Assembly (NCBI GenBank): GCA_947492955.1 | Contig: CANLOV010000005.1 | Location: 1 to 64,000, forward strand | Source of the DNA: an uncultured Cellulophaga sp. | GTDB lineage: Bacteria > Bacteroidota > Bacteroidia > Flavobacteriales > Flavobacteriaceae | DNA length: 64,000 bases | Direction of reading: 5' to 3' | Shown here: positions 35,793 to 51,790 of the stretch, one piece after another | Position numbering within the stretch: position 1 is the first letter of the stretch | Layout: each line of letters starts with the position of its first letter | Program-made: the position numbers and the translations under genes | The notes under the pieces: generated by a model | What the model saw: the letters and a program-made list of their open reading frames with translations, nothing else | Database searches by the model: none | What the model was told of the DNA's origin: nothing

Positions 35793-36404
35793 TTAAACCA
35801 ACTGTTTAGCAATTCCTTTTGCAATTAAAAAATCTAGTCTAAGAATAAGATTTATAGGTTTTTCTGCTTTGTTTTTGCTAGAAATAAACAAGTAGCCCTC
35901 CCTCCTATGATTTAATTTAGGGTGTTTAATTTTTCCGTGTTTACTGTTATTTTCTAAGCAATATTTATATAAAGAACTTTCATTAAGTTCTAAATTATTT
36001 AAAAAAAGTAATAGCTTTTTTCTGTTTACAAAAGTTATTTTACAAGAGGTGTATTTATGAGGTTCATCGCTATAAATACTTGTAATTAAACTATAGAAAT
36101 CTGTTTTTTTACTAGTATCAAACAACCAACCTTTTTTCTCAATATTATTTTTAAAATAGGATAACTCAAAAGCAAAAGTGGGTAAGTCTTCATTAATATA
36201 ATCGAGCTGCGCTTTTTCATCTACTAAAAACTGTTTTTTAGAGCTTTTATGAGTTAAGACAAGGTCTATACCAGAAAGTTGCTCTTTTAGGTTATAAACA
36301 CGTTTAAAATTGTAAAAATTAAAGTGCTTTTTATAATAAGTATCTAGTAAAACAGCTAGTTTTTGTTCTTTTTTTAAATCAGAATTAAAGTTGCTTTTTA
36401 GCAT
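35793..36404 (-). CDS. Putative PD-(D/E)xK restriction endonuclease paired with the DNA methyltransferase
   Basis: A 203-residue protein with no named family that I can assign. Residues 40-70 contain a PD-(D/E)xK-like pattern: GIDLVL (Asp 47), about 15 residues, then VDEKAQ with D62-x-K64. Gln 66 after the lysine is also seen in several type II restriction enzymes. It begins 8 bp after the methyltransferase gene on the same strand, which is a usual layout of a type II restriction-modification pair. The function is inferred from motif and context only; the recognition site is unknown. Confidence 0.55.
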   Translation of the reverse strand: MLKSNFNSDLKKEQKLAVLLDTYYKKHFNFYNFKRVYNLKEQLSGIDLVLTHKSSKKQFLVDEKAQLDYINEDLPTFAFELSYFKNNIEKKGWLFDTSKKTDFYSLITSIYSDEPHKYTSCKITFVNRKKLLLFLNNLELNESSLYKYCLENNSKHGKIKHPKLNHRREGYLFISSKNKAEKPINLILRLDFLIAKGIAKQLV

Positions 36405-36412
36405 CCTCTAAT

Positions 36413-37639: not shown

Positions 37640-37931
37640 GCTATTAAAATAAGATTTACAATATAGGTATTGGTTTTCTTATCACCAAAGATGTTACCAT
37701 ATGGATATATAAAATTGAATGTTTTAGCCCTTTTATGGGATTGTATAGTAATCCTTCTTTTTTAACAAAAATTATTTCTTTGTAATAGCTAATTTTAACA
37801 GAAAAGCTTTCGTATTTTAAGTAGGTATGATGCATATAAAAGGGTGTTTATCAGTATATAAATACGTATATTTCATGTTTAATCACCATTCTAAAAAAAT
37901 TAATAAAGCCAATTTTAATCACCACATTATC

Positions 37932-39509
37932 ATGAAAAATATAACTAAAAATTTAAAACCTCTGGGTGTTAGTTTCTTATTATTATTTGCATTTATAGCT
38001 TGTAAAGATGTAAAAAAAGAAAAATCCGATGTTAAAGAGGAAACAGCTAAAAAACCAAATATTGTTGTTATTTATATGGACGATTTAGGTTTTGGAGATG
38101 TAGGATTCAATGGTGCCAGAGCATTTAAAACTCCTAATATGGATAAGTTAGCAAACGGAGGTTTAAAATTTACTAATGGTTATGCTAGCTCTGCTACATG
38201 TACACCAAGTAGATATGCTTTATTAACAGGTGTATATCCTTGGAGAGATAAAGATGCAAAAATACTACCAGGAACAGCACCGCTACTTATTAAAACTGAT
38301 CAAATGACGATTCCAAAAATGCTAAAAACTAAAGGATACCAAACGGGTATTGTTGGAAAATGGCATTTAGGCTTAGGAGCAGGAAATGTAGATTGGAACA
38401 AGCATGTTAAACCAGGGCCTAATGAAGTAGGTTTCGATTATTCTTATATCATGGCTGCTACGCAAGATAGAGTACCTACGGTATATATAGAAGATGGAAA
38501 TGTTGTTGGCCTAGACCCTAATGATCCTATTGTAATAGATTATAAAAATAATTTTGAAGGACAACCTACAGGAAAAGATAATCCTGAATTATTAAAAATG
38601 ACTTGGCATCATGGCCATAATAATACCATAGTAAATGGTATTCCTAGAATTGGATTTATGAAAGGTGGAGAAAAAGCTAAATGGATAGATGAGGATATGG
38701 CAGACCATTTTTTAAAAGGAGCCCAAGACTATGTAAAAAAACATAAAAAAGAACCTTTCTTTTTATACTATGCAATGCAACAACCACATGTACCACGTAC
38801 ACCGCACCCTCGTTTTGTGGGTAAATCTGGTTTAGGAGCTCGTGGCGATGTTATTTTAGAAGCAGATTGGTGTATAGGTGAGTTTGTAAAAACATTAGAA
38901 GAAGAAGGTTTATTAGAGAATACACTTATTGTTTTTTCTAGTGATAATGGACCAGTTTTAAACGATGGTTATAATGATGAATCTGATACTAAAATAGGAG
39001 AACATACACCTTGGGGACCTTTTAGAGGTGGAAAATATAGCTTACTAGAAGCAGGAACTAACGTGCCGTTTTTTACCTATTGGAAAGGAATAATTAAACC
39101 AGGGAAAACAGATGCTTTAGTTTGTCAAATGGATTTGCTTTCTTCTTTAGCTGCTTTGGTAGATAGTGATATTAGAGTAGACGATAGTCAGGATTTATTA
39201 GATGTATTTTTAGGAGAATCTAACAAAGGAAGAGAAAATTTAGTGATAGAAGCTACTTCTAGAACAGCATTTCGCCAAGGAGATTGGGTAATGATACCAC
39301 CGTATGAACTTCCTGAAATAAATACGCAAGTAAATATAGAATTAGGAAATGCTAAAGAATATCAACTATATAATTTAAAAGAGGATATTGGGGAGAAAAA
39401 TAATTTAGCAACGGTAAATAAAGAAAAGTTAAAGGAAATGATAACTTCTTTTGAAAGTATAAGAGGTAAAGATTATAAAAAAAATGTAGGAGGTTTAAAA
39501 TTAAAATAA
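37932..39509 (+). CDS. S1-family sulfatase lipoprotein
   Basis: I chose the ATG at 37932 (525 residues) because it gives a clean lipoprotein signal (LLLFAFIAC, Cys 24); the frame continues upstream to 37827 without a signal. The formylglycine motif is C90-TPSR with a TG further on. PNIVVIYMDDLGFGDVGFNG binds calcium, and GKWHLGLG, HHGHN and SSDNGP are other hallmarks. It hydrolyses a sulfate ester, probably on an algal polysaccharide or oligosaccharide in the periplasm. It needs a maturase (anSME-type), not present here. Next to the L-fucose/L-galactose operon, so sulfated L-galactose or fucose is a plausible substrate. Confidence 0.92.
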   Translation: MKNITKNLKPLGVSFLLLFAFIACKDVKKEKSDVKEETAKKPNIVVIYMDDLGFGDVGFNGARAFKTPNMDKLANGGLKFTNGYASSATCTPSRYALLTGVYPWRDKDAKILPGTAPLLIKTDQMTIPKMLKTKGYQTGIVGKWHLGLGAGNVDWNKHVKPGPNEVGFDYSYIMAATQDRVPTVYIEDGNVVGLDPNDPIVIDYKNNFEGQPTGKDNPELLKMTWHHGHNNTIVNGIPRIGFMKGGEKAKWIDEDMADHFLKGAQDYVKKHKKEPFFLYYAMQQPHVPRTPHPRFVGKSGLGARGDVILEADWCIGEFVKTLEEEGLLENTLIVFSSDNGPVLNDGYNDESDTKIGEHTPWGPFRGGKYSLLEAGTNVPFFTYWKGIIKPGKTDALVCQMDLLSSLAALVDSDIRVDDSQDLLDVFLGESNKGRENLVIEATSRTAFRQGDWVMIPPYELPEINTQVNIELGNAKEYQLYNLKEDIGEKNNLATVNKEKLKEMITSFESIRGKDYKKNVGGLKLK

Positions 39510-39530
39510 CAGCCTTAAAATAATGTAAAT

Positions 39531-39566
39531 AAAAATGCCTGTGAAATTAGTATCACAGGCATTTTT
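39531..39566. terminator. Bidirectional terminator
   Basis: Perfect 14-base inverted repeat AAAAATGCCTGTGA / TCACAGGCATTTTT with an 8-base loop, between the sulfatase and the end of the sugar operon. Confidence 0.9.
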
Positions 39567-39579
39567 ATTTGCTATAAAG

Positions 39580-39921
39580 TTATAATTGAAAAACCTTTTC
39601 CATTTCAATCCATTTTTCACCGTTTTTAGCCCACGGTAGCTCTTGTTGGTATTTCCACATCAATTGCTCCCACTCTTGTACTTTAGGGTTGTTAGCGTCC
39701 ATCTCTGCCTTTTTATTAGGGTCAAAGGTTTCGTCTACTTCCATAATCATAAACATACGATTTCCTGTTAAGTAAATTTGCATGTCTACAATACCAGCAT
39801 CTTTTATACTAGCTGTAATCTCTGGCCAAGCATTACCAGTAGCATGGTATTCTTTATATTCTGCAATTAATTTGGGGTCGTCTTTTAAATCACAAGAAAG
39901 ACAGTATCTTTTTGTTTTCAT
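39580..39921 (-). CDS. L-fucose/L-rhamnose mutarotase (DUF718 family)
   Basis: A 113-residue dimeric alpha/beta-barrel enzyme that speeds the alpha/beta anomer exchange of a sugar. TKRYCLSCDLKDDPKLIAEYKEYH, AWPEITASIKDAGIVDMQIYL and RMFMIMEVDETFD are the RhaM-type motifs. Last gene of the minus-strand sugar operon, 12 bp after the permease. Here it probably acts on L-galactose or L-fucose. It is ended by the hairpin at 39531. Confidence 0.9.
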   Translation of the reverse strand: MKTKRYCLSCDLKDDPKLIAEYKEYHATGNAWPEITASIKDAGIVDMQIYLTGNRMFMIMEVDETFDPNKKAEMDANNPKVQEWEQLMWKYQQELPWAKNGEKWIEMEKVFQL

Positions 39922-39933
39922 TATTTATATAAT

Positions 39934-41253
39934 TTAAGCTTTATCTATTTTTGAAGCAAAAAAACCATATAAGCCCACAACAGCAATACATATCATAGGT
40001 ACTATAAAAGAAAATTTTACCTCAGGAACTCCCATTATTGTTGTATCTGCTAACTTATCTCCCCCTATATCTATAATAGATGCTTGGATTAATGGGAAAA
40101 ATGAACCTCCTACAATAGCCATTACTAAAAATGCTGATCCAATTTTAGCTTCATCTCCCATATCTTTTAATGCAATACCATAAATTGTAGGAAACATAAT
40201 AGACATAAATAATGAAATACAAACTAGAGATATTAATCCTGGCATCCCAGGAATTAATATTGCTCCTAAGCAACATACAACTGCTAAAACAGCAAACAAG
40301 GTTAATAATTTAGGAGCTTTCATTTTACTTAATAAAATTGTTCCTAAGAAACGCCCTCCTAGAAAAATACCCATAGCTATCATATTCATGTAAGTTGCAT
40401 TAATATCACTGCCCGTAGATTCGTTTAAATATTGAACATATTGAAAAATAGCAGTCCAACACATAATTTGGGCACCTACATAAAACATCTGTGCAATAAC
40501 ACCTGGAAAGAAAGCTTTCTTTTTAAATATTTTTCTTATAGACTCACTAAAACTTAAAGAGACTTCTTTTTGAACATTTGGAATTTTAGTCATAGCAATG
40601 ACAACTAGTATAACTAACACAACAACACCTATTCCTATGTAAGGATAACTTATAATACTTAAATCTTCTGTTTTTATTGCTGCTTTTGTTGCACTATCCA
40701 ATGCTGCATAAGTATTTTCATCATAATTAGCTGATTTTATTTGACTTAAAACCACAAACTGAGCAACCATCATCCCAGTTAAAGAACCAATAGGGTTAAA
40801 AGATTGTGCTAAATTTAAACGTTGTGTAGCCGTTTCTTTATCACCTAAAGACAACATAAGAGGGTTTGATGTAGTTTCTAATAAAGCTAACCCACATGTA
40901 ATCACATATAAAGAAATTAAGAAGAAGGTATAATTCTCTAAAACAGAAGCAGGATAAAACAAAAACGCTCCAACAGCATACAATGTTAGTCCCAATAAAA
41001 TCCCAGACTTATAACTATATTTTTTAATAAACAAAGCTGCCGGTAGTGCCATGCAAAAATATCCAAAATAAAAAGCAGCCTGTACTAAATATGCTTGAAA
41101 CCAACTAAGTTCTGGCATTACCTTTTTAAATGCTGATACCATAGGGTTTGTAACATCATTTGCAAAACCCCAAAGAGCAAATAAAGAGGTAATAATTATA
41201 AAAGGAAATAAGAGTTCTTTCCTAACTACAGGAATTTTAGCTGATTTATTCAT
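39934..41253 (-). CDS. fucP: L-fucose permease-type proton symporter (FucP, MFS)
   Basis: A 439-residue inner-membrane protein with about twelve helices. FALWGFANDVTNPMV is the signature of the FucP/GlcP sugar-proton symporters, followed by AALFIKKYSYKSGILLGL and LGLLETTSNP-like CGLALLETTSNPLMLSLG. These take up L-fucose, L-galactose or D-glucose/galactose. In this operon of L-galactose-type enzymes, L-galactose or L-fucose is the probable substrate. Most likely co-transcribed with the mutarotase and SDR genes. Confidence 0.9.
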   Translation of the reverse strand: MNKSAKIPVVRKELLFPFIIITSLFALWGFANDVTNPMVSAFKKVMPELSWFQAYLVQAAFYFGYFCMALPAALFIKKYSYKSGILLGLTLYAVGAFLFYPASVLENYTFFLISLYVITCGLALLETTSNPLMLSLGDKETATQRLNLAQSFNPIGSLTGMMVAQFVVLSQIKSANYDENTYAALDSATKAAIKTEDLSIISYPYIGIGVVVLVILVVIAMTKIPNVQKEVSLSFSESIRKIFKKKAFFPGVIAQMFYVGAQIMCWTAIFQYVQYLNESTGSDINATYMNMIAMGIFLGGRFLGTILLSKMKAPKLLTLFAVLAVVCCLGAILIPGMPGLISLVCISLFMSIMFPTIYGIALKDMGDEAKIGSAFLVMAIVGGSFFPLIQASIIDIGGDKLADTTIMGVPEVKFSFIVPMICIAVVGLYGFFASKIDKA

Positions 41254-41355
41254 TCTTTTTGGTTTAGATTAATATTTTAAATAAATACTCTAGCAAATTA
41301 ATAAGACAAAACGAACTTATCTATCACTTTACTCTTTTATTGTACAACATATGTT

Positions 41356-42147
41356 TTATTCTGTTAATAAAGACCTATCTAAGTGTACATAACCACCATC
41401 TACAGTAATAAACTGCCCTGTAGTATGCGATGACTTTTCCGAAATTGTAAATAAACACTGATCTGCAATTTCTTGCGGAGTGGTCATTCTATTTTCTAAC
41501 GGAATCTTTTTTACAATAGATTGTAACTTTTCTTCTCCGTTTTCTAAAGTATCAATCCAATTTTGATAGGCAGGTGTCCAGCTTTCAGCAATAATAATAG
41601 CATTAGAGCGTATACCATCTTTAATTAAATCTACAGCCCACTCACGAGTTAAACCGGCAACACCACCTTTTGATGCTGCATAACCAGAAGTTCCTCCCTG
41701 ACCCGTAAGCCCTACTTTAGAACCAATATTTAAGATGTTTCCTTTTGCTTTTTTTAGCATTGGTAAGCAATACTTTGTCATGGCAAAGAAACTTACTAGA
41801 TTTAATTTTAAAGACCACATAAAATCTTCCATAGATGCATCTAAACCTGCACCATCGTTTACGCCCACGTTATTTATTAAAGCATCTACACGCCCGTATT
41901 TTTTTTCTATAACTTCAGCAGCAGCTTTAATTTGTGTATGGTCCGATAAGTCTGTTTTTACAAAAATGGAATCTATGCCACGTGCTTGTAATGCTTCTGC
42001 ATAACCTATTCCACGATCGTTACGACAAACAATTACAGGAATTGCTCCTTCATTAGCCAATGATTGTACTATTGTTTCTCCTATACTCCCTTTTATTCCT
42101 GCAGCACCAGTGACTACAACTACTTTGTTTTTTAATCCTAAATCCAT
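41356..42147 (-). CDS. SDR-family L-fucose/L-galactose dehydrogenase
   Basis: A 263-residue short-chain dehydrogenase. TGAAGIKGSIG near residues 13-23 binds NAD(P), the NNVG motif follows near 92, and the catalytic Ser143, Tyr156 (GYAASKGG) and Lys160 are present. Relatives in fucose operons oxidise L-fucose or L-galactose at C1 to the lactone. In this locus it would make L-galactono-1,5-lactone for the downstream lactonase. It starts 2 bp before the lactonase stop on the same strand. Specificity between L-fucose and L-galactose cannot be read from sequence. Confidence 0.85.
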   Translation of the reverse strand: MDLGLKNKVVVVTGAAGIKGSIGETIVQSLANEGAIPVIVCRNDRGIGYAEALQARGIDSIFVKTDLSDHTQIKAAAEVIEKKYGRVDALINNVGVNDGAGLDASMEDFMWSLKLNLVSFFAMTKYCLPMLKKAKGNILNIGSKVGLTGQGGTSGYAASKGGVAGLTREWAVDLIKDGIRSNAIIIAESWTPAYQNWIDTLENGEEKLQSIVKKIPLENRMTTPQEIADQCLFTISEKSSHTTGQFITVDGGYVHLDRSLLTE

Positions 42148-42149
42148 TT

Positions 42150-42977
42150 TTATAAGTTGTAAAATTCCATAGCATTTAATCCCATAATTTTTTCTTGTTC
42201 AGCGGGGCTTAGTTTTGCTATAAAGTTTGTGGTTAATTCTTTTACTTTTTTATAGTTTCCTGCTACCAAACATACAGGCCAATCTGATCCATACATAAGT
42301 CTATTAGGCCCAAAAGCTTCTAAAACCAAATTCATATAAGGCTCTATTTGTGCAGGTGTCCAAGAATTGTAATCTGCTTCTGTGATCATACCAGAAAGTT
42401 TACAGCTTACATTTTCGTAGGAGGCAACTTCTTTCATTAAAGCAGCCCACCCCTCATAAAAACCATCTTTTATGTAAGGCTTAGCAATATGATCAATAAC
42501 AAATTTTTGGTTTGGAAACTTTTTTACAAATTCTAATGTAGCTCCTAATTGGTGCGGAAATATTAGAATATCGTAAGTATAATTAAACTCTTTTAGAGCA
42601 GAAATACCATTTAAAAAATTAGGCCTTAGTAAAAAGTTGTGGTCTGGTTCTCCTTGTACTACATGCCTAAAACCTTTTACTTTATTAAATTGACTATACT
42701 TTTCTAAATCTGTTTTAACAGTATTGCTTCTTAAATCTACCCACCCAACAATACCTTTAATAAAATCGTTTTCATTTGCAAGTTGAATAAGAAAGTCTGT
42801 TTCTGCTAATGTTTGGTCTGCTTGTACAGCAACACACCCATCAATAGTATTTTCCTGATATACCTTTTTTAAATCTGACGGACTAAAATCTCTACGGATT
42901 ACAGCCATATCGTCGTCTATCCATTCGTGTTTTACGGGTTCGTAATTCCAAAAATGCTGATGAGAATCTATAGTCAT
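42150..42977 (-). CDS. Amidohydrolase-superfamily sugar lactonase (L-fucono/L-galactono-lactonase type)
   Basis: A 275-residue TIM-barrel hydrolase of the COG3618 type. TIDSHQHFWNY carries the metal-binding HxH, FVIDHIAKPYI the later His, and LMYGSDWPV the final Asp. Family members open L-fucono-, L-rhamnono- and L-galactono-1,5-lactones. It is between the SDR gene and the fucosidase gene in the sugar operon. It probably hydrolyses L-galactono-1,5-lactone and possibly L-fuconolactone. Confidence 0.88.
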   Translation of the reverse strand: MTIDSHQHFWNYEPVKHEWIDDDMAVIRRDFSPSDLKKVYQENTIDGCVAVQADQTLAETDFLIQLANENDFIKGIVGWVDLRSNTVKTDLEKYSQFNKVKGFRHVVQGEPDHNFLLRPNFLNGISALKEFNYTYDILIFPHQLGATLEFVKKFPNQKFVIDHIAKPYIKDGFYEGWAALMKEVASYENVSCKLSGMITEADYNSWTPAQIEPYMNLVLEAFGPNRLMYGSDWPVCLVAGNYKKVKELTTNFIAKLSPAEQEKIMGLNAMEFYNL

Positions 42978-42981
42978 TTTA

Positions 42982-44526
42982 TTATTGTGAAATGGTTACT
43001 TTTATTACTGTTGCCAACTCATTTATCTGTTGCGTAGGCGCTTTTATATGTAGCCCTTCTTCATCTAAGTTCCATGTTATTTTTTCATCACTTCCTAAAA
43101 ACGAAACCGTTTCTATAGCTACCTCATCGTGGATATTTTTTTTAGCAAATGATTCTAAAAGTAATTCTTTATTAGAGGCTACAGTTCCTAGTATAATACC
43201 ATAAATGTTATAATCCTTGGTGGTATATCTAATATCTTTATTAGAATATTTTAATTTTATAAAGGCCTTATGGTTTTTAAAATGTCCTTTAGGTTCTTTC
43301 GTTGGTCCTTCCCCAAAAGTGTACCAAGCTTCGGTATCATAAATTGCTTCGCCATATTTTTTTAACCAATCTCCCATTTTTAATAAACCATCTTTTTGGT
43401 TTTCTGGGATAGTACCATCTGCTTTTGGAGATACATTTAATAACAAAACACCATTTTTACTGGTAATATCTACAAGCATATGCAGAATATCCTTAGCTGG
43501 TTTTACCCCTAAATTTTCTGTATAACACCAACTACCATCACTAATAGTAGCATCTGTCATCCATGTTTTTGTACCAATTACATTTTTACGTGCCTGTTCT
43601 AAATCGTCTACACTTAAAGACAAAGGTAAATCGTGTTGTTTTCTACCAATAACAACTTCTTTTCCTAATTCATGGGCTTTATTTAAGTAATAAGCAGCAA
43701 ATTCTTTTCTGTAGTTTTCAGGAATATCACCCAATACATAATCGAACCAAACAATATCTGGGTTATAGTTATCTATAACTTCTTTTAATTTCCCTAACCA
43801 TATTTCTTTATACCATTTTTCTGGTTCCATATTACCATAAAGCAATTGTAATTCTGGGTCGTTAGAACTTGTTGGCATTCCTTCAAAATATGGAAAATGA
43901 CTTATAGAAACTTCTTTTCCTAATTCTGTACTACGTTGTAAATTTTTAGAGTGATGAAAAGTGGTTATTAATTTCATATCTAAGGCTCTAATTGCCTCTG
44001 CTATTTCACCTGTAATATCGCGTTTAGGGCCTTTATTAACAACATTCCAAGGCGTTACTTTACTATCCCACATCGCAAAACCATCATGGTGTTCTGCTAC
44101 AGGACCTGCAAATTGTGCTCCTGCATCTTTAAATAATTGTGCCCATTCTTTAGCATTAAATTTTTCTGCCTTAAACATAGGTACAAAATCGTGATATCCA
44201 AATTCTGATAGTTCTCCGTATTTTTCTACATGGTGTTTGTACACTTTATGGTCTTTAAAATGCATGTGTCTTGGATACCATTCATTATGAAAAGCAGGAA
44301 CGGAGTATACTCCCCAGTGAAAATAGATGCCTAATTTGGCATTTTTAAACCATTCTGGAGATTCGTTATGTTTTCCTAAAGATTGCCAGTCTGGAGTGTA
44401 TTTAGGGGCAGTAACGGCTTCTTTTATTGTGTTAGGAGCTGTTTCTTTTGTGTTCTTTTCTGTACAACTAGAAATAATAGATAGCACTAAAAGAAGGCTT
44501 AAAATTTTTGAAGATATCCGATTCAT
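42982..44526 (-). CDS. GH29 alpha-L-fucosidase (or alpha-L-galactosidase) lipoprotein
   Basis: A 514-residue glycoside hydrolase with a lipoprotein signal (LLLVLSIISSC, Cys 21). WFKNAKLGIYFHWGVYSVPAF and GAQFAGPVAEHHDGFAMWDS are GH29 hallmarks, and NPDIVWFDYVLGD, near residue 270, contains the nucleophile aspartate. It releases alpha-L-fucose, or by stereochemistry alpha-L-galactose, from chain ends in the periplasm. Its place in the operon links it to the L-galactose route. GH29 enzymes with L-galactosidase activity are known in principle; specificity here is unproven. Confidence 0.9.
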   Translation of the reverse strand: MNRISSKILSLLLVLSIISSCTEKNTKETAPNTIKEAVTAPKYTPDWQSLGKHNESPEWFKNAKLGIYFHWGVYSVPAFHNEWYPRHMHFKDHKVYKHHVEKYGELSEFGYHDFVPMFKAEKFNAKEWAQLFKDAGAQFAGPVAEHHDGFAMWDSKVTPWNVVNKGPKRDITGEIAEAIRALDMKLITTFHHSKNLQRSTELGKEVSISHFPYFEGMPTSSNDPELQLLYGNMEPEKWYKEIWLGKLKEVIDNYNPDIVWFDYVLGDIPENYRKEFAAYYLNKAHELGKEVVIGRKQHDLPLSLSVDDLEQARKNVIGTKTWMTDATISDGSWCYTENLGVKPAKDILHMLVDITSKNGVLLLNVSPKADGTIPENQKDGLLKMGDWLKKYGEAIYDTEAWYTFGEGPTKEPKGHFKNHKAFIKLKYSNKDIRYTTKDYNIYGIILGTVASNKELLLESFAKKNIHDEVAIETVSFLGSDEKITWNLDEEGLHIKAPTQQINELATVIKVTISQ

Positions 44527-44535
44527 AATATAATT

Positions 44536-45996
44536 TTATATACTTAATTGAGATTTAAGTACTGTTTCTATTCCGTTTTGGTCTATAGCTTCTAAGTTTT
44601 TAGCAACAGCAGTAGCTAAACCATCTATAGCGTTTAAATTTATTCCCCAAATAGTAGTATTTTCTAATAGTTGAACAACTAATTCTGAATAACTAATTTC
44701 TTCAGCTTCTTTTTTATTCCAAACAGTTTTAAAAAAGGCTAGTGTTTCAGGAGCATCATTTACTGCAATAAGCTCATTATTATATTCTCCTTTATAAAAA
44801 CGAATAAGGCAGGATAAAGCAAATACAATACGTTTTGGTAATTTATTTTGGCTATCATTATATTCTTTTAAGGCAGGATAAAGCCTTGCTATAAATTTAG
44901 AAGTACTATTTAATGATATACTGATTAAGAAATGTTTTAGGGTAGGGTTTTTAAACCTGTCTAATACTGCATTTACAAAAGCATTGAGTTCTTCTTTTGG
45001 AAAATCTTGAAGCGTTTTGGTAATTTCTTTGGAAAGAACTTCGTTTACATATTTAAGAATTAATGGGTTATCCATAGATTCTTTAACTGTTCTAAGTCCT
45101 GCTAAATAAGCAACAGGAACTAATGAAGTATGTGCTCCGTTAAGAATACGTACTTTCATTTCTCTATAAGCTCTAGCGTCTTTTACAAACTGAACATTAA
45201 GGTTTGTTTGCCCAAAAGGCAATTCTTTTTCTACAATAGCATCTCCTTGTATTACCCAACTATGGTAATCTTCACCAGCAACTAATAATTTATCATTAAA
45301 ATTAAGCTCTTTTAAAATAGCTTCTGAACGTTCTTTTGGATAACCAGAAACAATACGATCTACAAGCGTATTACAGAAATAATTGTAATTTTTTATCCAA
45401 GAGATAAAATCATTAGAAAGACCAAAGTGTTTTGCATATTGAAGAACAGTTGCTTTTAAAGCATCTCCATTTTGTTCTATTAACTCGCAAGGCAATAAAA
45501 TACAGCCTTTATCTTTTGCTCCTTTAAAATGCTGAAATCTATGGTGTAACCAAACGGTTAGTTTTGCAGGAAACTCATGCGGAGGATTATCATTTAGGGT
45601 ATCAGAATCAGAAAATTTTATACCAGATTCTGTAGTATTAGAAACAATAAATCTAATAGTTTCACTTTCTGCTAATGCTATGTATGTATCCCATTCGGTA
45701 TAGGGTTGTATAACACGACTAACACTTTCTACTAAAGTTAAATTAGAAACAAGTTCTCCTTTACGAATACCATCTAAGGCAACATAAAATAAACCATCTT
45801 GTTCTTTTAGCTCTGTATAGTCACCTCTTTTTGTGGGTTTAATAACTACAACACTACCATTAAAATTGGTTTCTTTATTTAGAGCATCAAACATCCAATT
45901 AGCAAAAGCACGTAAAAAATTACCCCCTCCAAATTGTAATACCCTTTCTGGGGCTATATGTTGTGTTTTTGTTGTTTGTCTGTTTAATAATTGCAT
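44536..45996 (-). CDS. uxaB: Tagaturonate reductase (altronate oxidoreductase)
   Basis: A 486-residue mannitol-dehydrogenase-family enzyme that interconverts D-tagaturonate and D-altronate with NADH. PERVLQFGGGNFLRAFANWMFD holds the NAD-binding GxGxF-type motif near residues 20-30; RIVSGYPK and RILNGAHTSLVPVAYLAG carry the catalytic Lys/Asn/His region. It lacks the long N-terminal extensions of mannitol dehydrogenases. Neighbour uxaA is the next enzyme in the pathway, which strongly supports the assignment. Confidence 0.92.
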   Translation of the reverse strand: MQLLNRQTTKTQHIAPERVLQFGGGNFLRAFANWMFDALNKETNFNGSVVVIKPTKRGDYTELKEQDGLFYVALDGIRKGELVSNLTLVESVSRVIQPYTEWDTYIALAESETIRFIVSNTTESGIKFSDSDTLNDNPPHEFPAKLTVWLHHRFQHFKGAKDKGCILLPCELIEQNGDALKATVLQYAKHFGLSNDFISWIKNYNYFCNTLVDRIVSGYPKERSEAILKELNFNDKLLVAGEDYHSWVIQGDAIVEKELPFGQTNLNVQFVKDARAYREMKVRILNGAHTSLVPVAYLAGLRTVKESMDNPLILKYVNEVLSKEITKTLQDFPKEELNAFVNAVLDRFKNPTLKHFLISISLNSTSKFIARLYPALKEYNDSQNKLPKRIVFALSCLIRFYKGEYNNELIAVNDAPETLAFFKTVWNKKEAEEISYSELVVQLLENTTIWGINLNAIDGLATAVAKNLEAIDQNGIETVLKSQLSI

Positions 45997-46016
45997 TTAC
46001 GGTTTGTGCTATATAA

Positions 46017-47669
46017 TTATAATGAAATTCCTCTTTTCCAAGGAATAAAATCGTTTTGACCTTTAAGGTCTGCTTTGGCAGCTATTTCTCCGCTAGCTAC
46101 TTTTATAATGTGTTCTAATATTTTTTCTCCCATGCTTTCTATGGTATCTTCTCCAGAGATAACTGTACCAGCATTTATATCTATAATATCATTCATTTTT
46201 TCGAACAAATGAGTATTGCTAGACATTTTTAAAACGGGAGCAATTGGGTTTCCTGTAGGTGTTCCTAAGCCAGTAGTAAAAACAATAATATTGCATCCAG
46301 AACCAGCTAAACCAGTAGTACTTTCTACATCGTTACCCGGCGTACAAAGTAAATTTAAACCTGGTTTTGTAATTTTTTCTGTATAATCTAAAACTTTGGT
46401 AACTGGTGATGTTCCTCCTTTTTTTGCTGCACCAGCAGATTTCATGGCATCGGTTATTAAGCCATCTTTAATATTTCCTGGTGAAGGGTTATTTTCAAAA
46501 CCAGAACCTACAGCTACAGCTGCTGCTGAATAAGAACGCATAAGAGAAGAGAATTTTTTTGCATCTTCTTGCTGTTCACATCTATTAATTAGGTCTTGTT
46601 CTACTCCATTGAGTTCAGGAAATTCTGAAAGTATAGGTGAACCTCCTAAGCCAACTAATAAATCCGATGCATACCCTAGTGCTGGGTTTGCAGAGATACC
46701 AGAAAAACCATCGGAACCACCACATTCTAGTCCTAGAACTAGCTTGTTTAAAGGTGCTGGTTTGCGTTCTATTTTATTGGCTTCGGTTAAACCTACAAAA
46801 GTATGTTTTACAGCCTCTTCTATTAATTTTCTTTCACTAGCGCTTTTTTGCTGTTCTAGATAATGTATAGGCTTAGAAAAGTTAGGGTCTTTTTCTAGAA
46901 TTGCTTTTTGTAGCATATCTATTTGTGCATTTTGGCACCCTAAACTAAAAATGGTTGCTCCTGCTACATTACTGTTGGTAATATAACCGGCTAAGAGTTT
47001 ACAGAGTATTTCTGAATCTTGGCGAATACCGCCACAACCGCCATCGTGCTTTAAAAATTTTATACCATCAACATTTGGGAAAACTCTATTTTTAGACATT
47101 TCCTCTTTCGTAGTAATGATGGGTGTATTGTATAAATCGTCTGTAGAAGCACCCGATTTATATTTGTTAATTAATGCTGAGGTATCTACAGCAAAATCTT
47201 TTTTTGTTTGGTAGCCTAAAGCATCAGATAATGCTGCTTCTAGCACATCTATATTTCTATTTTCACAGAAGGTTAAGGGAATTACCAACCAGTAATTCCC
47301 TGTCCCTACACTACCGTCTGCTCTATGATATCCATTAAAGGTTCTTCCTTTAAATTTTGATATGTCTGGAGCTTTCCAAGTAAATTTTTCGTTAGCATCA
47401 TTAAAATCTGCAGAAGCATGCTTTACGTTTTCTATGGTGATTGCTGTTCCTTTTTGGATAGGTAAAACGGCCTTACCAATTAGAACACCATACATAAATA
47501 TTTGATCACCAATGTTAAAATCATTTAAAGCAAATTTGTGTTTGCCTTTTATGTTTTCTTTTAAGTCAAATGTTTGCCCAGCAATAGTAACAGTTGTTCC
47601 TTGTTCTAAATTATGAATAGCAACAATAATATTATCTTTTGGATCTATTTGAACGTAACTTTTGGGCAT
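46017..47669 (-). CDS. uxaA: Altronate dehydratase
   Basis: A 550-residue UxaA-family dehydratase that converts D-altronate to 2-keto-3-deoxy-D-gluconate. An N-terminal SAF-like domain (residues about 1-95) precedes the catalytic domain: FNGYHRADGSVGTGNYWLVIP, KHDGGCGGIRQDSE, LGLECGGSDGFSGISANPALG and FTTGLGTPTGNPIAPVLK. Length is normal for the fused two-domain form. It lies between uxaB and the KDPG aldolase gene. Confidence 0.92.
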   Translation of the reverse strand: MPKSYVQIDPKDNIIVAIHNLEQGTTVTIAGQTFDLKENIKGKHKFALNDFNIGDQIFMYGVLIGKAVLPIQKGTAITIENVKHASADFNDANEKFTWKAPDISKFKGRTFNGYHRADGSVGTGNYWLVIPLTFCENRNIDVLEAALSDALGYQTKKDFAVDTSALINKYKSGASTDDLYNTPIITTKEEMSKNRVFPNVDGIKFLKHDGGCGGIRQDSEILCKLLAGYITNSNVAGATIFSLGCQNAQIDMLQKAILEKDPNFSKPIHYLEQQKSASERKLIEEAVKHTFVGLTEANKIERKPAPLNKLVLGLECGGSDGFSGISANPALGYASDLLVGLGGSPILSEFPELNGVEQDLINRCEQQEDAKKFSSLMRSYSAAAVAVGSGFENNPSPGNIKDGLITDAMKSAGAAKKGGTSPVTKVLDYTEKITKPGLNLLCTPGNDVESTTGLAGSGCNIIVFTTGLGTPTGNPIAPVLKMSSNTHLFEKMNDIIDINAGTVISGEDTIESMGEKILEHIIKVASGEIAAKADLKGQNDFIPWKRGISL

Positions 47670-47685
47670 GCTTTGGTTTTAATAA

Positions 47686-48354
47686 TTATTTACGAACGGC
47701 TTTAATTATATCTAAAGCTGCTTTTACGTCTTTTTCTAATTTTGCGTAATCTTTGTTTGCTATAATGTCTTTAGAAATTAATTTAGACCCCATACCAACA
47801 CAAGTAACACCAGCATTAAACCAACCAGATAAGTTTTCTTCTGTTGGTGCAACACCACCTGTAGGCATAATACTTGTCCAAGGGCAAGGTCCTTTAATAC
47901 CTTTTACAAAGTTTGGTCCGTATAAATCTCCAGGGAATAATTTTACAATTTCGCATCCAAGCTCTTCTGCTCTAGCTATTTCTGTTAAAGAACCACAACC
48001 AGGAGACCATAGTACTTTTTTTCTGTTACAAGCAATGGCAATATCTTCTCTTAATACAGGAGTTACAATAAAGTTAGCTCCTAAAGCCATATATAAAGAT
48101 GCTGCACCAGCATCGGTAATAGAACCAACACCCATTATCATTCCAGGTAATTCTGCAACAGCATATTTTGTTAATTCTCCAAAAACTTCGTGAGCAAAAT
48201 CTCCACGAGCAGTGAACTCCATTAAACGAGCACCACCATCGTAACAAGCTTTTAATACTTTTTTACTTAATTCTAAATCACTATTAAAAAACAAAGGAAT
48301 CATCCCTGTTTCTTTCATTGCCGTAGCAACTTCTATTCTTGTAAATTGTGCCAT
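47686..48354 (-). CDS. eda: KDPG aldolase (2-keto-3-deoxy-6-phosphogluconate aldolase)
   Basis: A 222-residue class I aldolase that splits KDPG into pyruvate and glyceraldehyde 3-phosphate. Glu 46 (LMEFTARG) and Schiff-base Lys 138 (EIVKLFPGD) are the expected catalytic residues; IMPTGGVAPT is the phosphate site. With the adjacent KDG kinase it completes the Entner-Doudoroff-type lower end of the hexuronate route. A small hairpin at about 48366-48391 separates it from the kinase gene. Confidence 0.92.
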   Translation of the reverse strand: MAQFTRIEVATAMKETGMIPLFFNSDLELSKKVLKACYDGGARLMEFTARGDFAHEVFGELTKYAVAELPGMIMGVGSITDAGAASLYMALGANFIVTPVLREDIAIACNRKKVLWSPGCGSLTEIARAEELGCEIVKLFPGDLYGPNFVKGIKGPCPWTSIMPTGGVAPTEENLSGWFNAGVTCVGMGSKLISKDIIANKDYAKLEKDVKAALDIIKAVRK

Positions 48355-48365
48355 AATTTTATTTT

Positions 48366-48391
48366 AAACCCTTCCTCGAAAGGAAGAGTTT
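48366..48391 (-). other. Intercistronic hairpin in the sugar operon
   Basis: An AACCCTTCCT / AGGAAGAGTT inverted repeat with a short loop (one mismatch) lies between the KDG kinase and KDPG aldolase genes. No T run follows on the minus strand, so it may be a processing or stabilising structure rather than a terminator. Confidence 0.4.
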
Positions 48392-48420
48392 TTAAATTAA
48401 TATTGTTGTTATAAAAAGTA

Positions 48421-49467
48421 TTAACGAGCTACTCTACCAGAAGCATCACCACCCATTAATTTTTCTACTTCAGCAACTGTTGCTAAGTTAGCATCACCTT
48501 TAATAGTATGCTTTAAACAAGAAGCCGCAACTGCAAAATCTAATGCATTTTGGTCATCTTCTGGGTATTTTAATAATCCGTAGATTAATCCACCCATGAA
48601 AGAATCTCCACCACCAACTCTATCAACGATATCTGTTATTTGGTACTGACGTGTTTGGAATAATGTTTTACCATCATATAAAACCCCTGCCCATGTGTTA
48701 TGAGATGCAGAGATAGAACCTCTTAATGTTGTAATTACCTTTTTAGCTTTAGGGAATTTTTTCATCATTTGCTCACATACAGATAAGAAAGCTTCTGCTT
48801 TTACATTGTGTCCTTCTGTTTGTACGCTAATTCCTTCTGGCTTAATTCCAAAGTGCATTTCTGCATCTTCTTCGTTTCCTAAAACGATATCACAGTAAGA
48901 AGTTAATTCTGTCATAATCGCTTCTCTATGTGCATCATCACAGAACTTCCATAATTTTGCTCTATAGTTTAAGTCTGTAGAAATAGTAATACCTTTAGCA
49001 CTAGCTGCTTTTACTGCTTCTAAACAAACATCTGCAGAACCTTGAGAAATTGCAGGAGTAATTCCTGTCCAGTGGAACCATTCAACACCATCGAAAATAG
49101 CATCCCAATCAATCATACCAGATTCAATTTCTGCCATTGCAGAATGTGCACGGTCATAAACTACTTTAGATCCTCTAGATACAGCACCTGTTTCAAGGAA
49201 ATAGATTCCTAAACGGTCTCCACCGTAAACAATTTTATCTACGCCTACACCTCTTTTACGCATTTCCATCATAGCACACTCGCCAATGTCATTTTTTGGC
49301 AAACGTGTTACAAAATCTACATCTACTCCGTAGTTTGCAAGAGATACAGCAACGTTAGATTCTCCACCACCATATATAGCGTCGAAATTGTTAGCTTGTG
49401 AAAATCTTAAGAATCCTTGTGGAGCCAATCTTAACATGATTTCTCCAAATGTTACTACTTTACCCAT
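48421..49467 (-). CDS. kdgK: 2-keto-3-deoxygluconate kinase (PfkB family)
   Basis: A 348-residue ribokinase-like enzyme that phosphorylates KDG to KDPG. VTFGEIMLRLAPQGFLRFSQ and AIYGGGESNVAVSLANYGVDV are the KDG-kinase-like N-terminus; the ATP/anion-hole motif is DRVGGGDSFMGGLIYGL near residue 285, with GGGD replacing GAGD but keeping the catalytic Asp. Its order with the aldolase, uxaA and uxaB fits one pathway. Confidence 0.9.
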   Translation of the reverse strand: MGKVVTFGEIMLRLAPQGFLRFSQANNFDAIYGGGESNVAVSLANYGVDVDFVTRLPKNDIGECAMMEMRKRGVGVDKIVYGGDRLGIYFLETGAVSRGSKVVYDRAHSAMAEIESGMIDWDAIFDGVEWFHWTGITPAISQGSADVCLEAVKAASAKGITISTDLNYRAKLWKFCDDAHREAIMTELTSYCDIVLGNEEDAEMHFGIKPEGISVQTEGHNVKAEAFLSVCEQMMKKFPKAKKVITTLRGSISASHNTWAGVLYDGKTLFQTRQYQITDIVDRVGGGDSFMGGLIYGLLKYPEDDQNALDFAVAASCLKHTIKGDANLATVAEVEKLMGGDASGRVAR

Positions 49468-49503
49468 TTTTAATTTATATTTAGTTTTAGTTGTGAACTT
49501 AAT

Positions 49504-50517
49504 TTAAGATTGAAAACTAACAGTTGCTTTAATAACACCTGTTTCTGGTTTTAACCAGCTATCAAAATTTTCTATCATTTCTGTATAAGGGACATTGTGT
49601 GTAATGAAAGATGCAGTTGGAAACTGATCTAGAACACTAATTACGTGCTCAAAATCTTCTGTTGTAGCATTACGACTACACATTAATGTCATTTCTTTAG
49701 CATGTACTGCTGGGTGATTATAAGTTAGCTCTCCTTTAGATAGGCCTACTAAAATAAATCTACCACCGTGAGACATATATGAAGGACCACTTTCTAAGGC
49801 TCCCTTATGTCCGGAAGCATCGAAAACGGCAGTACATAAATCTCCATTTGTAATATCAGTAATTTGTTTTATGGGATCATTACCAACATTTACGGTATAA
49901 TCTACACCTATTTTTTCTTTGGCATATTGTAAACGTTGTTCGTTCATATCCATAGCAATTACCTTTGCTCCTGCTATTTGTGCTAATTTCATAATTCCGA
50001 TACCAATAGGTCCGCAACCAACAACAGCTACAATTTCACCAGGCTGTATTGCAGCTCTTCTAACAGCATGCGCACCAATAGCTAATGGCTCTACAATTGC
50101 CATTTGATCGTTAGATAAATTGTTTGCGGGTAATAAAATATCTGCAGGCACAGTAATTTGCTCTTGCATACCACCATCTGTGTGTACACCTAGAACTTTA
50201 ATATTGGTACAACAATTTGTTTTTCCGTTAGTGCAAGCAATACATTCGTTACAGCTTACATAAGGCATTATTACCACTTTATCGCCTGCTTTTATTCCTC
50301 TTTTATTTTCGCCAATTTCTATAACTTCAGTAGCCAGTTCATGACCAAGAATTCTTGGATAAGTAAAAAAAGCTTGGTTGCCAGCATACGCATGTAAATC
50401 TGTACCACAGATACCTACTTTGTTAACCTGTAATAAAGCTTCGTTTTCTTTTCTAACAGGAGCTTCTTTTTCTTTTAATAAAAATTCTCCAGGTTTTTCG
50501 CAAACAATGTATTTCAT
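49504..50517 (-). CDS. Zinc-dependent medium-chain dehydrogenase, probably L-galactonate 5-dehydrogenase
   Basis: A 337-residue medium-chain dehydrogenase. The catalytic-zinc residues are in GICGTDLHAY and LGHELATEVIE; the structural-zinc cysteines are in CNECIACTNGKTNCC; the NAD fold is VAVVGCGPIGIGIMKLAQIAG. E. coli YjjN (LgoD) in the same family oxidises L-galactonate to D-tagaturonate. Since tagaturonate reductase, KDG kinase and a sugar lactonase are encoded next to it, that activity is the best fit. First gene of the operon, just downstream of the two operators. Sorbitol/threonine-type activity cannot be excluded. Confidence 0.7.
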   Translation of the reverse strand: MKYIVCEKPGEFLLKEKEAPVRKENEALLQVNKVGICGTDLHAYAGNQAFFTYPRILGHELATEVIEIGENKRGIKAGDKVVIMPYVSCNECIACTNGKTNCCTNIKVLGVHTDGGMQEQITVPADILLPANNLSNDQMAIVEPLAIGAHAVRRAAIQPGEIVAVVGCGPIGIGIMKLAQIAGAKVIAMDMNEQRLQYAKEKIGVDYTVNVGNDPIKQITDITNGDLCTAVFDASGHKGALESGPSYMSHGGRFILVGLSKGELTYNHPAVHAKEMTLMCSRNATTEDFEHVISVLDQFPTASFITHNVPYTEMIENFDSWLKPETGVIKATVSFQS

Positions 50518-50565: not shown

Positions 50566-50581
50566 GTTCAATCGATTGAAC
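50566..50581. promoter_or_regulatory. LacI-type operator 1
   Basis: Perfect palindrome GTTCAATCGATTGAAC with the central CG typical of LacI-family operators, 49 bp upstream of the operon start. It shares the half-site GTTCAA with operator 2, 150 bp away. Confidence 0.8.
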
Positions 50582-50714: not shown

Positions 50715-50736
50715 TTTGTTCAAACGTTTGAACAAA
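50715..50736. promoter_or_regulatory. LacI-type operator 2
   Basis: Perfect 22-bp palindrome with core GTTCAAACGTTTGAAC, 13 bp upstream of the lacI-type regulator start. It would allow autoregulation and, with operator 1, DNA looping across the divergent promoters. Confidence 0.8.
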
Positions 50737-50749
50737 TATAGAAAAAAGT

Positions 50750-51790
50750 TTGGGAAACAAAAAAGTTACGATAAAAGATATTGCTAATGTTTTAGGTATA
50801 ACGCCTTCTGCAGTTTCTAAAGCACTTAATAATCACCCTAGAATTAGTGAGAAAACAAAAGTTGCGGTAGAGCAAATTGCAAAGAATCTTAATTACCAAC
50901 CCAATCATTTAGCCAGTGCTTTACGAAAAGGAAAAAGTAATTTAGTGGGGGTTATAGTTCCTTTAACTAACAGTAACTTTTTTTCGTCCGTTGTTCAAAA
51001 TATAGAAGAGGTTTTAAATAAGAAGGGCTATAATATTATAATTACCCAGTCTAACGAATCGTATAAAAAGGAATGTAGTAATATAGATACCTTATTGTAT
51101 ACGCAAGTAGATGGTATTATTGCTTCTATGGCTAATGAGACTACTAAATTAACACACTATAAGAAAATAAAATCTAAGGGAGTTCCTTTAATTTTGTTTG
51201 ATAGAGGAGAGAACGATTTAGGAGTAGATTATATTGGGATTGATGATTACAAAAGTAGTCAGTTAGTTATAGAACATCTGGTAGCTCAAAAATGCAAAAG
51301 AATAGCACATATTGCAGGGTATAGCCATACTAGAATTTATAAAAATAGAATTAGAGGTTACAAAGATGCTTTAGAGAAAAATGCATTACCTATTGAAAAA
51401 GAGTTGATATTAGAAACAAGTCTTACACTAGAAGAGGGAAGAAAAAAGATGGAATTATTATTGCAACTTCCTAATAGACCAGATGCTGTATATGTTGCGG
51501 GCGATTATGCAGCTTTAGGAGCTTTACAAGTATTAAAAGAACACAATATTAAAGTACCAGAGGAAATTGCATTGGTTGGTTTTAGTGATGAGCCTTTTAC
51601 TTCTTTAATAACGCCTTCGATTTCTACAATAAATCAACATAGTGAACAGATAGGAAAATTAGCAGCAGAAACTTTTTTAGAGCGAATAGAAGACCCTAAT
51701 TGGAAGCCTGTTCTAAATAAAATAATATTAGAACCAGAATTAGTGGTAAGAGAATCGTCAGATAAATTGGGTTTACTTAAAAAACAATAG
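50750..51790 (+). CDS. LacI-family transcriptional regulator of the sugar operon
   Basis: A 346-residue repressor read from a TTG start (TTG GGA AAC) that places the helix-turn-helix at the very N-terminus: KKVTIKDIANVLGITPSAVSKALN with hinge HLASALRKG near residues 50-60. The rest is a periplasmic-binding-protein-like effector domain (LVGVIVPLTNSNFFSSVV, GFSDEPFTSLITPSIST). Divergent from the operon with two palindromes between, so it probably represses it until an L-galactose-pathway intermediate binds. It overlaps the end of the convergent permease gene by 18 bp. Confidence 0.9.
   Translation: MGNKKVTIKDIANVLGITPSAVSKALNNHPRISEKTKVAVEQIAKNLNYQPNHLASALRKGKSNLVGVIVPLTNSNFFSSVVQNIEEVLNKKGYNIIITQSNESYKKECSNIDTLLYTQVDGIIASMANETTKLTHYKKIKSKGVPLILFDRGENDLGVDYIGIDDYKSSQLVIEHLVAQKCKRIAHIAGYSHTRIYKNRIRGYKDALEKNALPIEKELILETSLTLEEGRKKMELLLQLPNRPDAVYVAGDYAALGALQVLKEHNIKVPEEIALVGFSDEPFTSLITPSISTINQHSEQIGKLAAETFLERIEDPNWKPVLNKIILEPELVVRESSDKLGLLKKQ

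Follow-up and report, generated by a model that had tools for sequence, protein, structure and literature searches.

A predicted LacI-controlled operon for L-galactose catabolism, probably fed by porphyran, in a marine flavobacterium

In Bacteroides vulgatus, BVU_0219, BVU_0220 and BVU_0222 (a dehydrogenase, a lactonase and an L-galactonate dehydrogenase) reportedly convert L-galactose through its lactone and L-galactonate to D-tagaturonate, and in Escherichia coli KdgK and Eda carry out the final steps of L-galactonate catabolism. The non-phosphorylating L-fucose pathway consists of FucDH, a lactonase, FucD, KDF dehydrogenase and a hydrolase. The breakdown of porphyran to monosaccharides has been described in gut Bacteroides (PMC12316285, in excerpt); the fate of porphyran's L-galactose half in marine Flavobacteriia was not found in the literature searched.

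Here we analyzed a window of 64,000 nucleotides (positions 1 to 64,000 of contig CANLOV010000005.1, assembly GCA_947492955.1) from an uncultured Cellulophaga sp. Ten consecutive open reading frames, all confirmed, occupy its minus strand at 39580-50517 with intergenic gaps of 2-102 bp, and a Pfam search confirmed the family of every gene. By family, a C1 dehydrogenase, a lactonase, an L-galactonate 5-dehydrogenase and the tagaturonate-to-triose steps are all encoded, so that the pathway gene set is complete; an earlier note on this DNA had described a ten-gene block with every step from L-galactose to pyruvate and triose phosphate, and at the level of families Pfam and NCBIfam bore this out. 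We consider it very probable that the block is a single LacI-controlled operon that would take L-galactose, most likely from porphyran, from uptake to pyruvate and D-glyceraldehyde 3-phosphate. This core claim of the note is supported by a genome search that did not find key fucose-route genes, by swaps of an AKR for the SDR in related loci and by co-occurrence with an exo-L-galactose-6-sulfatase homologue.

We infer the substrate of each step from the encoded sequences; NCBIfam scores are given as bits/cut-off, a score below the cut-off marking a weaker name. A FucP-type sugar:H+ symporter (39934-41253; TIGR00885, 499/280) would import L-galactose, and a RhaM-family mutarotase (39580-39921; PF05336, 115 bits), probably for L-galactose and far below the cut-off of the rhamnose-specific model TIGR02625 (24.5/99.6), would act next. 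The SDR aldose 1-dehydrogenase (41356-42147; nearest PDB entry 4gkb), a proposed L-galactose dehydrogenase, would form L-galactono-lactone, which a proposed L-galactonolactonase of the amidohydrolase-2 family (42150-42977; PF04909; nearest PDB entry 4dlf; 266/400 against the fuconolactonase model, below cut-off) would convert to L-galactonate. Oxidation at C5 to D-tagaturonate would fall to the zinc dehydrogenase (49504-50517), a candidate L-galactonate 5-dehydrogenase below the cut-off of the PRK10083 model (195/376). Its residues C37/H59/E60/E143 and C89/C92/C95/C103, which we take to be zinc ligands, do not vary across 10 aligned sequences, its own included. The enzyme, called LgoD-type in the note, is 41% identical to E. 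coli LgoD. UxaB, a tagaturonate reductase (44536-45996; NF002969, 641/359; 43% identical to the E. coli protein), would then yield D-altronate, and the altronate dehydratase UxaA (46017-47669; PF20629, PF04295 and SAF; 30% identical to the E. coli protein; 274/731 against the galactarate model, below cut-off) would dehydrate it to KDG. Finally, a PfkB-family KDG kinase (48421-49467; PF00294), which corresponds to the kinase part of the fusion model NF041633 (480/700, below cut-off), and a KHG/KDPG aldolase (47686-48354; NF005499, 380/275) would together produce pyruvate and D-glyceraldehyde 3-phosphate.

On paper the same enzymes suffice for a route in which the dehydratase acts first on L-galactonate, the resulting 2-keto-3-deoxy-L-galactonate is oxidized at C5 by the zinc dehydrogenase and UxaB then gives KDG, and this order has a counterpart in the 2,5-diketo-3-deoxy intermediate of anhydro-L-galactose catabolism. 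We regard it as very improbable, because UxaB scores well above the tagaturonate reductase cut-off (641 vs 359) and because in Luteolibacter L-galactonate and D-tagaturonate are the substrates of LguD and LguC (PMC12632266, in excerpt).

The ten genes have a promoter region in common with a divergent gene on the plus strand (50750-51790) that was assigned to the LacI family by eye, and a homologue of this gene, 68-77% identical, adjoins the zinc dehydrogenase in several relatives. A 14-bp palindrome, TTCAAWCGWTTGAA, occurs at only two places in the 3.87-Mb genome, both within this region (50567-50580, TTCAATCGATTGAA; 50719-50732, TTCAAACGTTTGAA), and it is kept in relatives having an adjacent lacI; both copies are proposed operators to which the LacI protein would bind as a repressor. 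Directly after the last gene lies a terminator-like hairpin on the minus strand (39527-39570), whose stem of 18 pairs runs into a T-rich tail; the region holds 8 terminator-like sites against 5.6 expected. A promoter scan gave no excess (42 found, 49.8 expected by shuffling). The ten genes are presumably co-transcribed.

FucP, the RhaM-type mutarotase, the FucDH-like SDR and GH29 are all fucose-type families, and the locus could thus be read as an L-fucose operon with UxaA as L-fuconate dehydratase and GH29 as a fucosidase. A Campylobacter L-fucose locus is alike in make-up and includes the dehydratase Cj0483 (PMC6946681, in excerpt), and some clusters combine uxaA with FAH and KDF-dehydrogenase-like genes but have no uxaB (L115, L116, L119). 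Nevertheless, we searched the genome (G000) and found 0 matches to PF07881 for the L-fucose isomerase FucI, 0 for the L-fuconate dehydratase FucD candidate (an enolase-family query named by context) and 0 for the FAH hydrolase that fucose-type clusters carry, a 2,4-diketo-3-deoxy-fuconate hydrolase whose query was likewise named by context and reaches 360 bits against an L-rhamnonate-type hydrolase model with a cut-off of 500. For 6-deoxy acids it also makes no chemical sense to reduce tagaturonate or to phosphorylate KDG at C6, and in three operon genomes a fucose-type cluster lies apart from the operon and has an SDR of its own, the two SDR types being divided by both the tree and fixed differences. 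A plain L-fucose operon was therefore rejected and is, in our estimate, extremely improbable; the note's argument that L-fucose alone cannot explain UxaB and KdgK agrees with the 6-deoxy chemistry. The genome search thus turned up no key genes of two L-fucose routes, and among the substrates considered L-galactose has the best support.

The SDR carries S143/Y156/K160, presumably the expected catalytic motif. SDR rows of <45% identity or at least 330 residues were excluded, and a second tree was built without four long-branch rows (L144, L120, L139, L108); in it the SDR falls within a 70-row set apart from verified and fucose-cluster FucDHs (100/100), long branches being flagged and the bootstrap not settled. 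Positions 94 and 145 are Val in 70/70 rows of the set and Ala and Thr in 7/7 fucose-type rows. Three observations count against the L-galactose reading: the SDR exceeds the cut-off of the L-fucose dehydrogenase equivalog NF052481 (358 vs 300 bits), 18 of the 70 rows come from loci with the zinc dehydrogenase, SDR and lactonase but without UxaAB, and a characterized family member from C. jejuni uses L-galactose weakly (PMC6946681, in excerpt). Four of 55 operon-type loci, from four relatives, have an AKR in the SDR slot, as in Lutibacter agarilyticus, and the two never occur together. Five of the seven best PDB matches of this AKR are L-galactose dehydrogenases, although its top score (81.7 bits, to an L-galactose dehydrogenase) is barely above that of IolS (80.5). 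Since an AKR resembling L-galactose dehydrogenases replaces the SDR, and since the Luteolibacter AKR LguA does not use L-fucose (PMC12632266, in excerpt), the swap argues for L-galactose as the substrate.

The core of SDR, lactonase, FucP and zinc dehydrogenase with uxaA and uxaB is common to 25 of 65 full-flank loci of relatives, which bears on the linkage that the note proposed to check in neighboring genomes; these loci were picked by the zinc dehydrogenase, whose presence there is no evidence. Gene counts use identity limits (kdgK below 70% was dropped, hiding 48-51% kinases in L082, L083, L085, L094, L118 and L131), and locus sets overlap, L036 and L093 being the same contig as judged from length and place. 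The operon layout is widespread in marine Flavobacteriaceae. Having the full route, permease and glycosidase in one operon, which the note had put forward as the novelty, is accordingly not unique, the Luteolibacter lgu cluster also being close to complete (PMC12632266, in excerpt), and what looks new in the operon is how its enzymes, most of them known, are arranged. Counting against L-galactose, the other 19 of 28 genomes have the zinc dehydrogenase, SDR and lactonase without UxaAB; in 17 of these 19 the locus also includes a gene for an FAH hydrolase, the zinc dehydrogenase of the closest such locus (L033) is 84% identical, and the same enzyme is found in fucose-type loci too.

The absence of a uronate isomerase, as claimed earlier, holds for the operon and fails for the genome, which encodes UxaC on contig 1 (G000:C1:252863). 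As genome searches at E 1e-20 matched no UxaA or UxaB besides those of the operon and UxaC lies elsewhere, both enzymes may also serve D-galacturonate. The same facts would fit an operon that chiefly serves D-galacturonate, with UxaC supplying UxaB, UxaA, KdgK and Eda from a distance and with sugar-oxidation genes of other purpose attached; we think this very improbable, because UxaC has as neighbors an SDR and a gene judged by eye to be UxuA-like, a glucuronate-type set, and the SDR, lactonase and FucP beside uxaA/uxaB in 25/65 full-flank loci would be left unexplained.

The L-galactose would most likely come from L-galactose-6-sulfate units of porphyran, released outside the cytoplasm through the action of a sulfatase and a GH29 whose genes lie elsewhere in the genome, perhaps together with the operon's GH29 (42982-44526), whose N-terminus is lipoprotein-like by eye. 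This putative alpha-L-galactosidase or alpha-L-fucosidase belongs to family GH29 as first described (PF01120, 344 bits), and its catalytic nucleophile D262 lines up with the Asp of BpGH29 for which 7lnp has Asn. The nearest PDB chain is, narrowly, the L-galactosidase BpGH29 (phmmer, 341 vs 295 bits), with blastp giving 39% identity (327 bits) to it and 36% (310 bits) to a fungal fucosidase, and in the tree the operon GH29 and its five closest relatives make up a separate clade to which BpGH29 is not joined; the assignment by nearest chain was dropped, as neither tree nor blastp supports it. The sulfatase next door (37827-39509) was rejected as an L-galactose-6-sulfatase, being S1_15-like (665 bits to 7ozc, 59 bits to 7lha). 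That separate clade and the S1_15-like neighbor would suit an L-galactose pathway fed by another glycan through the operon's own GH29. We consider such a source unlikely: the genome also encodes a porphyranase-like GH86, a sulfatase and a BpGH29-like exo-alpha-L-galactosidase candidate, as well as a P450 resembling one beside Zobellia operons, and of the 395 genomes examined from the order, 7 have an exo-L-galactose-6-sulfatase homologue, every one of them belonging to the 9 operon genomes (genus-level p 2e-7). These porphyran-type genes and the tight co-occurrence point to porphyran and support the red-algal sulfated galactan named earlier as the probable source, although the sulfatase search, at its threshold, matched nothing in the operon genomes G291 and G109, and although the P450 homologue (8/395 genomes, 6 with the operon) is missing from 3 operon genomes and present in 2 others that lack the operon.

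Taken together, we think it likely that the operon serves porphyran degraders in the sea as their general route for L-galactose, that its SDR represents an undescribed L-galactose 1-dehydrogenase clade of separate origin from the AKR type, two unrelated folds swapping in one slot, and that operon, exo-L-galactose-6-sulfatase and 6-O-methyl-galactose demethylase together account for the downstream half of porphyran breakdown, which had been missing. The operon would provide a concrete L-galactose route in culturable hosts such as Zobellia galactanivorans, in which gene deletions have been made (PMC10033563) and where the operon corresponds by our count to about ZGAL_4680-4686, with the GH29 at 4679 (a literature search found no mention of locus tags ZGAL_4679-4684), predicts a new L-galactose dehydrogenase type and could mark L-galactose use in metagenomes; 'L-fucose dehydrogenase' and 'alpha-L-fucosidase' labels are possibly wrong in many marine genomes.

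Compared with known systems, the locus has the FucP, SDR, lactonase and mutarotase families in common with the non-phosphorylating L-fucose pathway, but its genome has no FucD-candidate or hydrolase match and its SDR stands apart from verified FucDHs in the tree. E. coli LgoD, UxaB and UxaA perform the same chemistry from L-galactonate onward but start at the acid, and their genes, unlike those of the operon, are far apart on the chromosome. In Halomonas and Chromohalobacter, L-fuconate/L-galactonate loci cluster lgoD, uxaA and uxaB (or uxaF) beside L-fucose/L-fuconate genes, with acid uptake by a TRAP transporter, the Halomonas loci being genome-context predictions (PMC5507952, in excerpt). 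The B. vulgatus BVU_0219-0222 system, compared by description, follows the same steps from L-galactose to D-tagaturonate; its BVU_0219 clusters with the AKR LguA and plant L-galactose dehydrogenase (PMC12632266, in excerpt), whereas here the first enzyme is an SDR and the later steps lie in the same operon. This system and lguABCDEF of Luteolibacter LG18 are the closest characterized ones. The latter takes L-galactose to KDPG cleavage by way of L-galactonate, D-tagaturonate, D-altronate and KDG, with most of the route encoded in one cluster. There the first enzyme is an AKR (found in the slot in 4/55 loci related to ours), the KDG kinase LguH lies outside the cluster, the regulator LguR is annotated as the activator Btr, and the excerpted text names no permease, lactonase or glycosidase in the cluster (PMC12632266), whereas the operon described here has an SDR, includes its kinase together with all three of these genes, and is paired with a LacI-family gene.

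All ten open reading frames that the earlier note had assigned to L-galactose catabolism were found, all on the minus strand (39580-50517), and Pfam and NCBIfam concur with the families it had named. The gene order is zinc dehydrogenase (49504..50517; proposed L-galactonate 5-dehydrogenase), KDG kinase, KDPG aldolase, UxaA, UxaB, GH29, lactonase, SDR (41356..42147), FucP and the mutarotase RhaM, with intergenic gaps of 2 to 66 bp except for 102 bp between SDR and FucP, and a terminator-like hairpin of 18 pairs lies 3' of the last gene. The lactonase, kinase, UxaA, mutarotase and zinc dehydrogenase fall below the specific NCBIfam cut-offs, and therefore these models give no exact substrates. 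Convergent with the operon is an S1_15-like sulfatase gene (37827-39509), which has a 69-73% homologue near the operon or the zinc dehydrogenase in three loci (L040, L107, L122). The stretch 35793-37639 carries a DNA cytosine methyltransferase-like gene and, after it, a gene of 203 aa; judged by eye, the two may form a restriction-modification pair.

At E 1e-60, the zinc dehydrogenase occurs in 28 of the 395 Flavobacteriales genomes compared, inside a uxaA/uxaB operon in nine and outside one in 19. Among named genomes, where the best 80 of 583 relatives were kept, 65 loci have full flanks, and 25 of these unite zinc dehydrogenase, uxaA, uxaB, lactonase, SDR and fucP, including those of Zobellia, Maribacter, Flavicella, Flavivirga, Aquimarina and Neolewinella agarilytica, with GH29 in 14 of the 25 and eda plus kdgK, by the limits set, in five. 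Related zinc dehydrogenases (51-55%) in 15 genomes of one genus (g2; L041-L055) stand with an SDR and lactonase but no uxaAB; the FAH hydrolase of fucose-type clusters is present in 14 of these 15 loci, and many hold KDF-dehydrogenase-like, CoA-transferase-like and GH28-like genes (the last two by eye), the substrate perhaps being L-galactose or L-fucose from plant pectin. Four Paenibacillus loci (L141-L143, L145) encode zinc dehydrogenases 56-59% identical, with no operon gene recognized nearby beyond weak matches to lacI (29-31%) and, in L141, a weak match to an AKR (aldo-keto reductase).

We defined operon-type loci as those with the zinc dehydrogenase, uxaA or uxaB, and lactonase or FucP (55 of 117 loci); 43 hold only the SDR, four only an AKR, none both and eight neither, the last group counting against the L-galactose reading. 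In the AKR loci, namely Lutibacter agarilyticus (L076), Mariniflexile maritimum (L077), Flavobacterium sp. UMI-01 (L078) and Wenyingzhuangia sp. (L083), the AKR takes the SDR's place between lactonase and FucP. Both of the two scanned, of the four, match PF00248, and no NCBIfam model names the slot AKR. For the L076 AKR, the single one searched, L-galactose dehydrogenases make up five of the seven best PDB matches, with modest and close scores (first 81.7 bits vs 80.5 for IolS). LguA, an AKR of Luteolibacter, is inactive on L-fucose (excerpts of PMC12632266). The slot probably encodes an L-galactose dehydrogenase, for which the swap is the strongest single argument. Genome G370 has a second zinc-dehydrogenase locus (L058) that may encode another L-sugar pathway: along with three GH29s and an AKR sharing 53% identity with the slot AKR, it holds genes resembling RhaM and FucP and others that by eye are of enolase type.

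It is highly improbable, in our estimate, that the operon serves L-fucose instead of L-galactose, although its SDR passes the L-fucose dehydrogenase model's cut-off and its GH29 resembles a fucosidase almost as much as the exo-alpha-L-galactosidase BpGH29. In a tree of 79 SDRs, those of fucose clusters separate (100/99); in a second, which gained 4gkb and 6drr (both verified L-fucose dehydrogenases) and lost four long rows, 70 rows including the operon SDR group together (100/100), leaving outside five fucose-cluster SDRs, 4gkb and 6drr. The exact branching is unsure, given flagged long branches and an unsettled bootstrap. Positions 94 and 145 are Ala and Thr in all seven fucose-type rows and Val in all 70 others. 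The set of 70 includes SDRs of loci with fucose-type genes (18 rows labeled F, 3 AF) and is therefore not purely operon-linked. Also counting against the L-galactose reading, a Campylobacter jejuni member of the L-fucose dehydrogenase family has only weak activity on L-galactose, which does not improve growth (PMC6946681, in excerpt).

Further evidence against L-fucose comes from the source genome, G000, where searches with L-fucose isomerase (PF07881), an enolase-family FucD candidate from L056 (E 1e-20) and the L033 FAH hydrolase (E 1e-60) all came back empty; the last two queries were named from context, the enolase exceeding no NCBIfam cut-off and the hydrolase reaching 360 bits against the 500-bit cut-off of the 2,4-didehydro-3-deoxy-L-rhamnonate hydrolase model. 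Six of the nine operon genomes have the FAH hydrolase (G000, G370 and G119 are without). Furthermore, G133, G373 and G391, one genus taken as Zobellia, have in addition to the operon a separate cluster with FucD candidate, KDF-dehydrogenase-like SDR, FAH hydrolase, second FucP and second FucDH-like SDR (53-54% to the operon SDR). On the other side, 19 of the 28 genomes combine zinc dehydrogenase, SDR and lactonase with no uxaAB alongside, and in 17 of these the locus also includes the FAH hydrolase; UxaA and UxaB matches lie elsewhere in all ten of these 19 that were searched, and a candidate common L-fucose/L-galactose front end would therefore explain these genomes. Clusters L115, L116 and L119 likewise mix uxaA with fucose-type genes: each has a uxaA-type dehydratase, which may be an L-fuconate dehydratase, with zinc dehydrogenase, KDF-dehydrogenase-like SDR and FAH hydrolase but without uxaB. 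As for D-galacturonate, the earlier note's absence of uronate isomerase holds for the operon but not genome-wide, as UxaC lies on contig 1, next to an SDR and a UxuA-like gene. UxaB and UxaA of the operon, each the single match in G000, may therefore serve D-galacturonate as well.

G000 also points to porphyran as the probable source of the sugar. It encodes a GH86 porphyranase-like protein on contig 14 and, on contig 11, a homologue of exo-L-galactose-6-sulfatase, which scores 608 bits with 7lha and 357 bits with the first chain beyond the 7lha/7snj/7sno group. Its neighbors are a GH29 (45% to BpGH29 vs 35% to a fungal fucosidase), a GH2, and alcohol dehydrogenase (70%) and esterase (63%) homologues whose counterparts adjoin Zobellia operons. 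At E 1e-140, with at most three candidates scored per genome and misses possible, the sulfatase occurs in seven of 395 genomes, all seven among the nine operon genomes (Fisher p 1e-13 by genome, kin treated as independent; 2e-7 by genus). Sulfatase and operon share one 20-kb locus in 11 of 117 loci, and in 21 the zinc dehydrogenase has upstream of it, usually no more than 2-3 kb away, a BpGH29-like GH29 at least 67% identical to that of contig 11. A P450 homologue (G133 query) is found in eight of 395 genomes, six of them operon genomes including G000, while the remaining 19 zinc-dehydrogenase genomes gave no match (genus-level p 9e-5). From gene order alone it is read as a candidate 6-O-methyl-galactose demethylase, because the order CYP, redox partners, esterase, ADH resembles that described in excerpts of PMC10033563. 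In L034-L036, L089 and L093 the operon lies between the P450 set and the sulfatase. By gene count from the ADH zgal_4674 (same excerpts), the Z. galactanivorans operon would be about ZGAL_4680-4686; the nearby ZGAL_4688-4690 are agar-responsive, their role being called unclear (PMC5613140, in excerpt), and the portions of published Zobellia work covered here do not mention induction of ZGAL_4680-4686.

The operon and a divergent LacI-family gene are separated by 232 bp that hold two copies of the palindrome TTCAAWCGWTTGAA (50567 and 50719), its only places in the 3.87-Mb genome; the reversed pattern occurs at one place. The palindrome is present in 10 of 14 spaces between zinc dehydrogenase and adjacent lacI, the window's own counted. 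L076 has a near variant, and the L071 space is reduced to 13 bases by ORF overlap. Together with the adjacent lacI, the pair suggests a putative local, dedicated repressor. L066 and L070 carry instead a different palindrome of TGCTA...TAGCA type (by eye), pointing to an operator that may have changed along with its regulator.

The chemistry of the L-galactose pathway is known from E. coli and reportedly from B. vulgatus. It is also known from Luteolibacter, in work that discusses B. vulgatus too (excerpts of PMC12632266), and lgoD-uxaA-uxaB loci adjoining fucose genes have been predicted in Halomonas (PMC5507952, in excerpt). We found no description of the operon in marine Flavobacteriia in the open-licence papers searched. 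New here is that one arrangement includes permease, mutarotase and the complete lower pathway; further new features are the SDR clade, the exchange of SDR for AKR, the palindrome pair local to the operon and its tight co-occurrence with the sulfatase.
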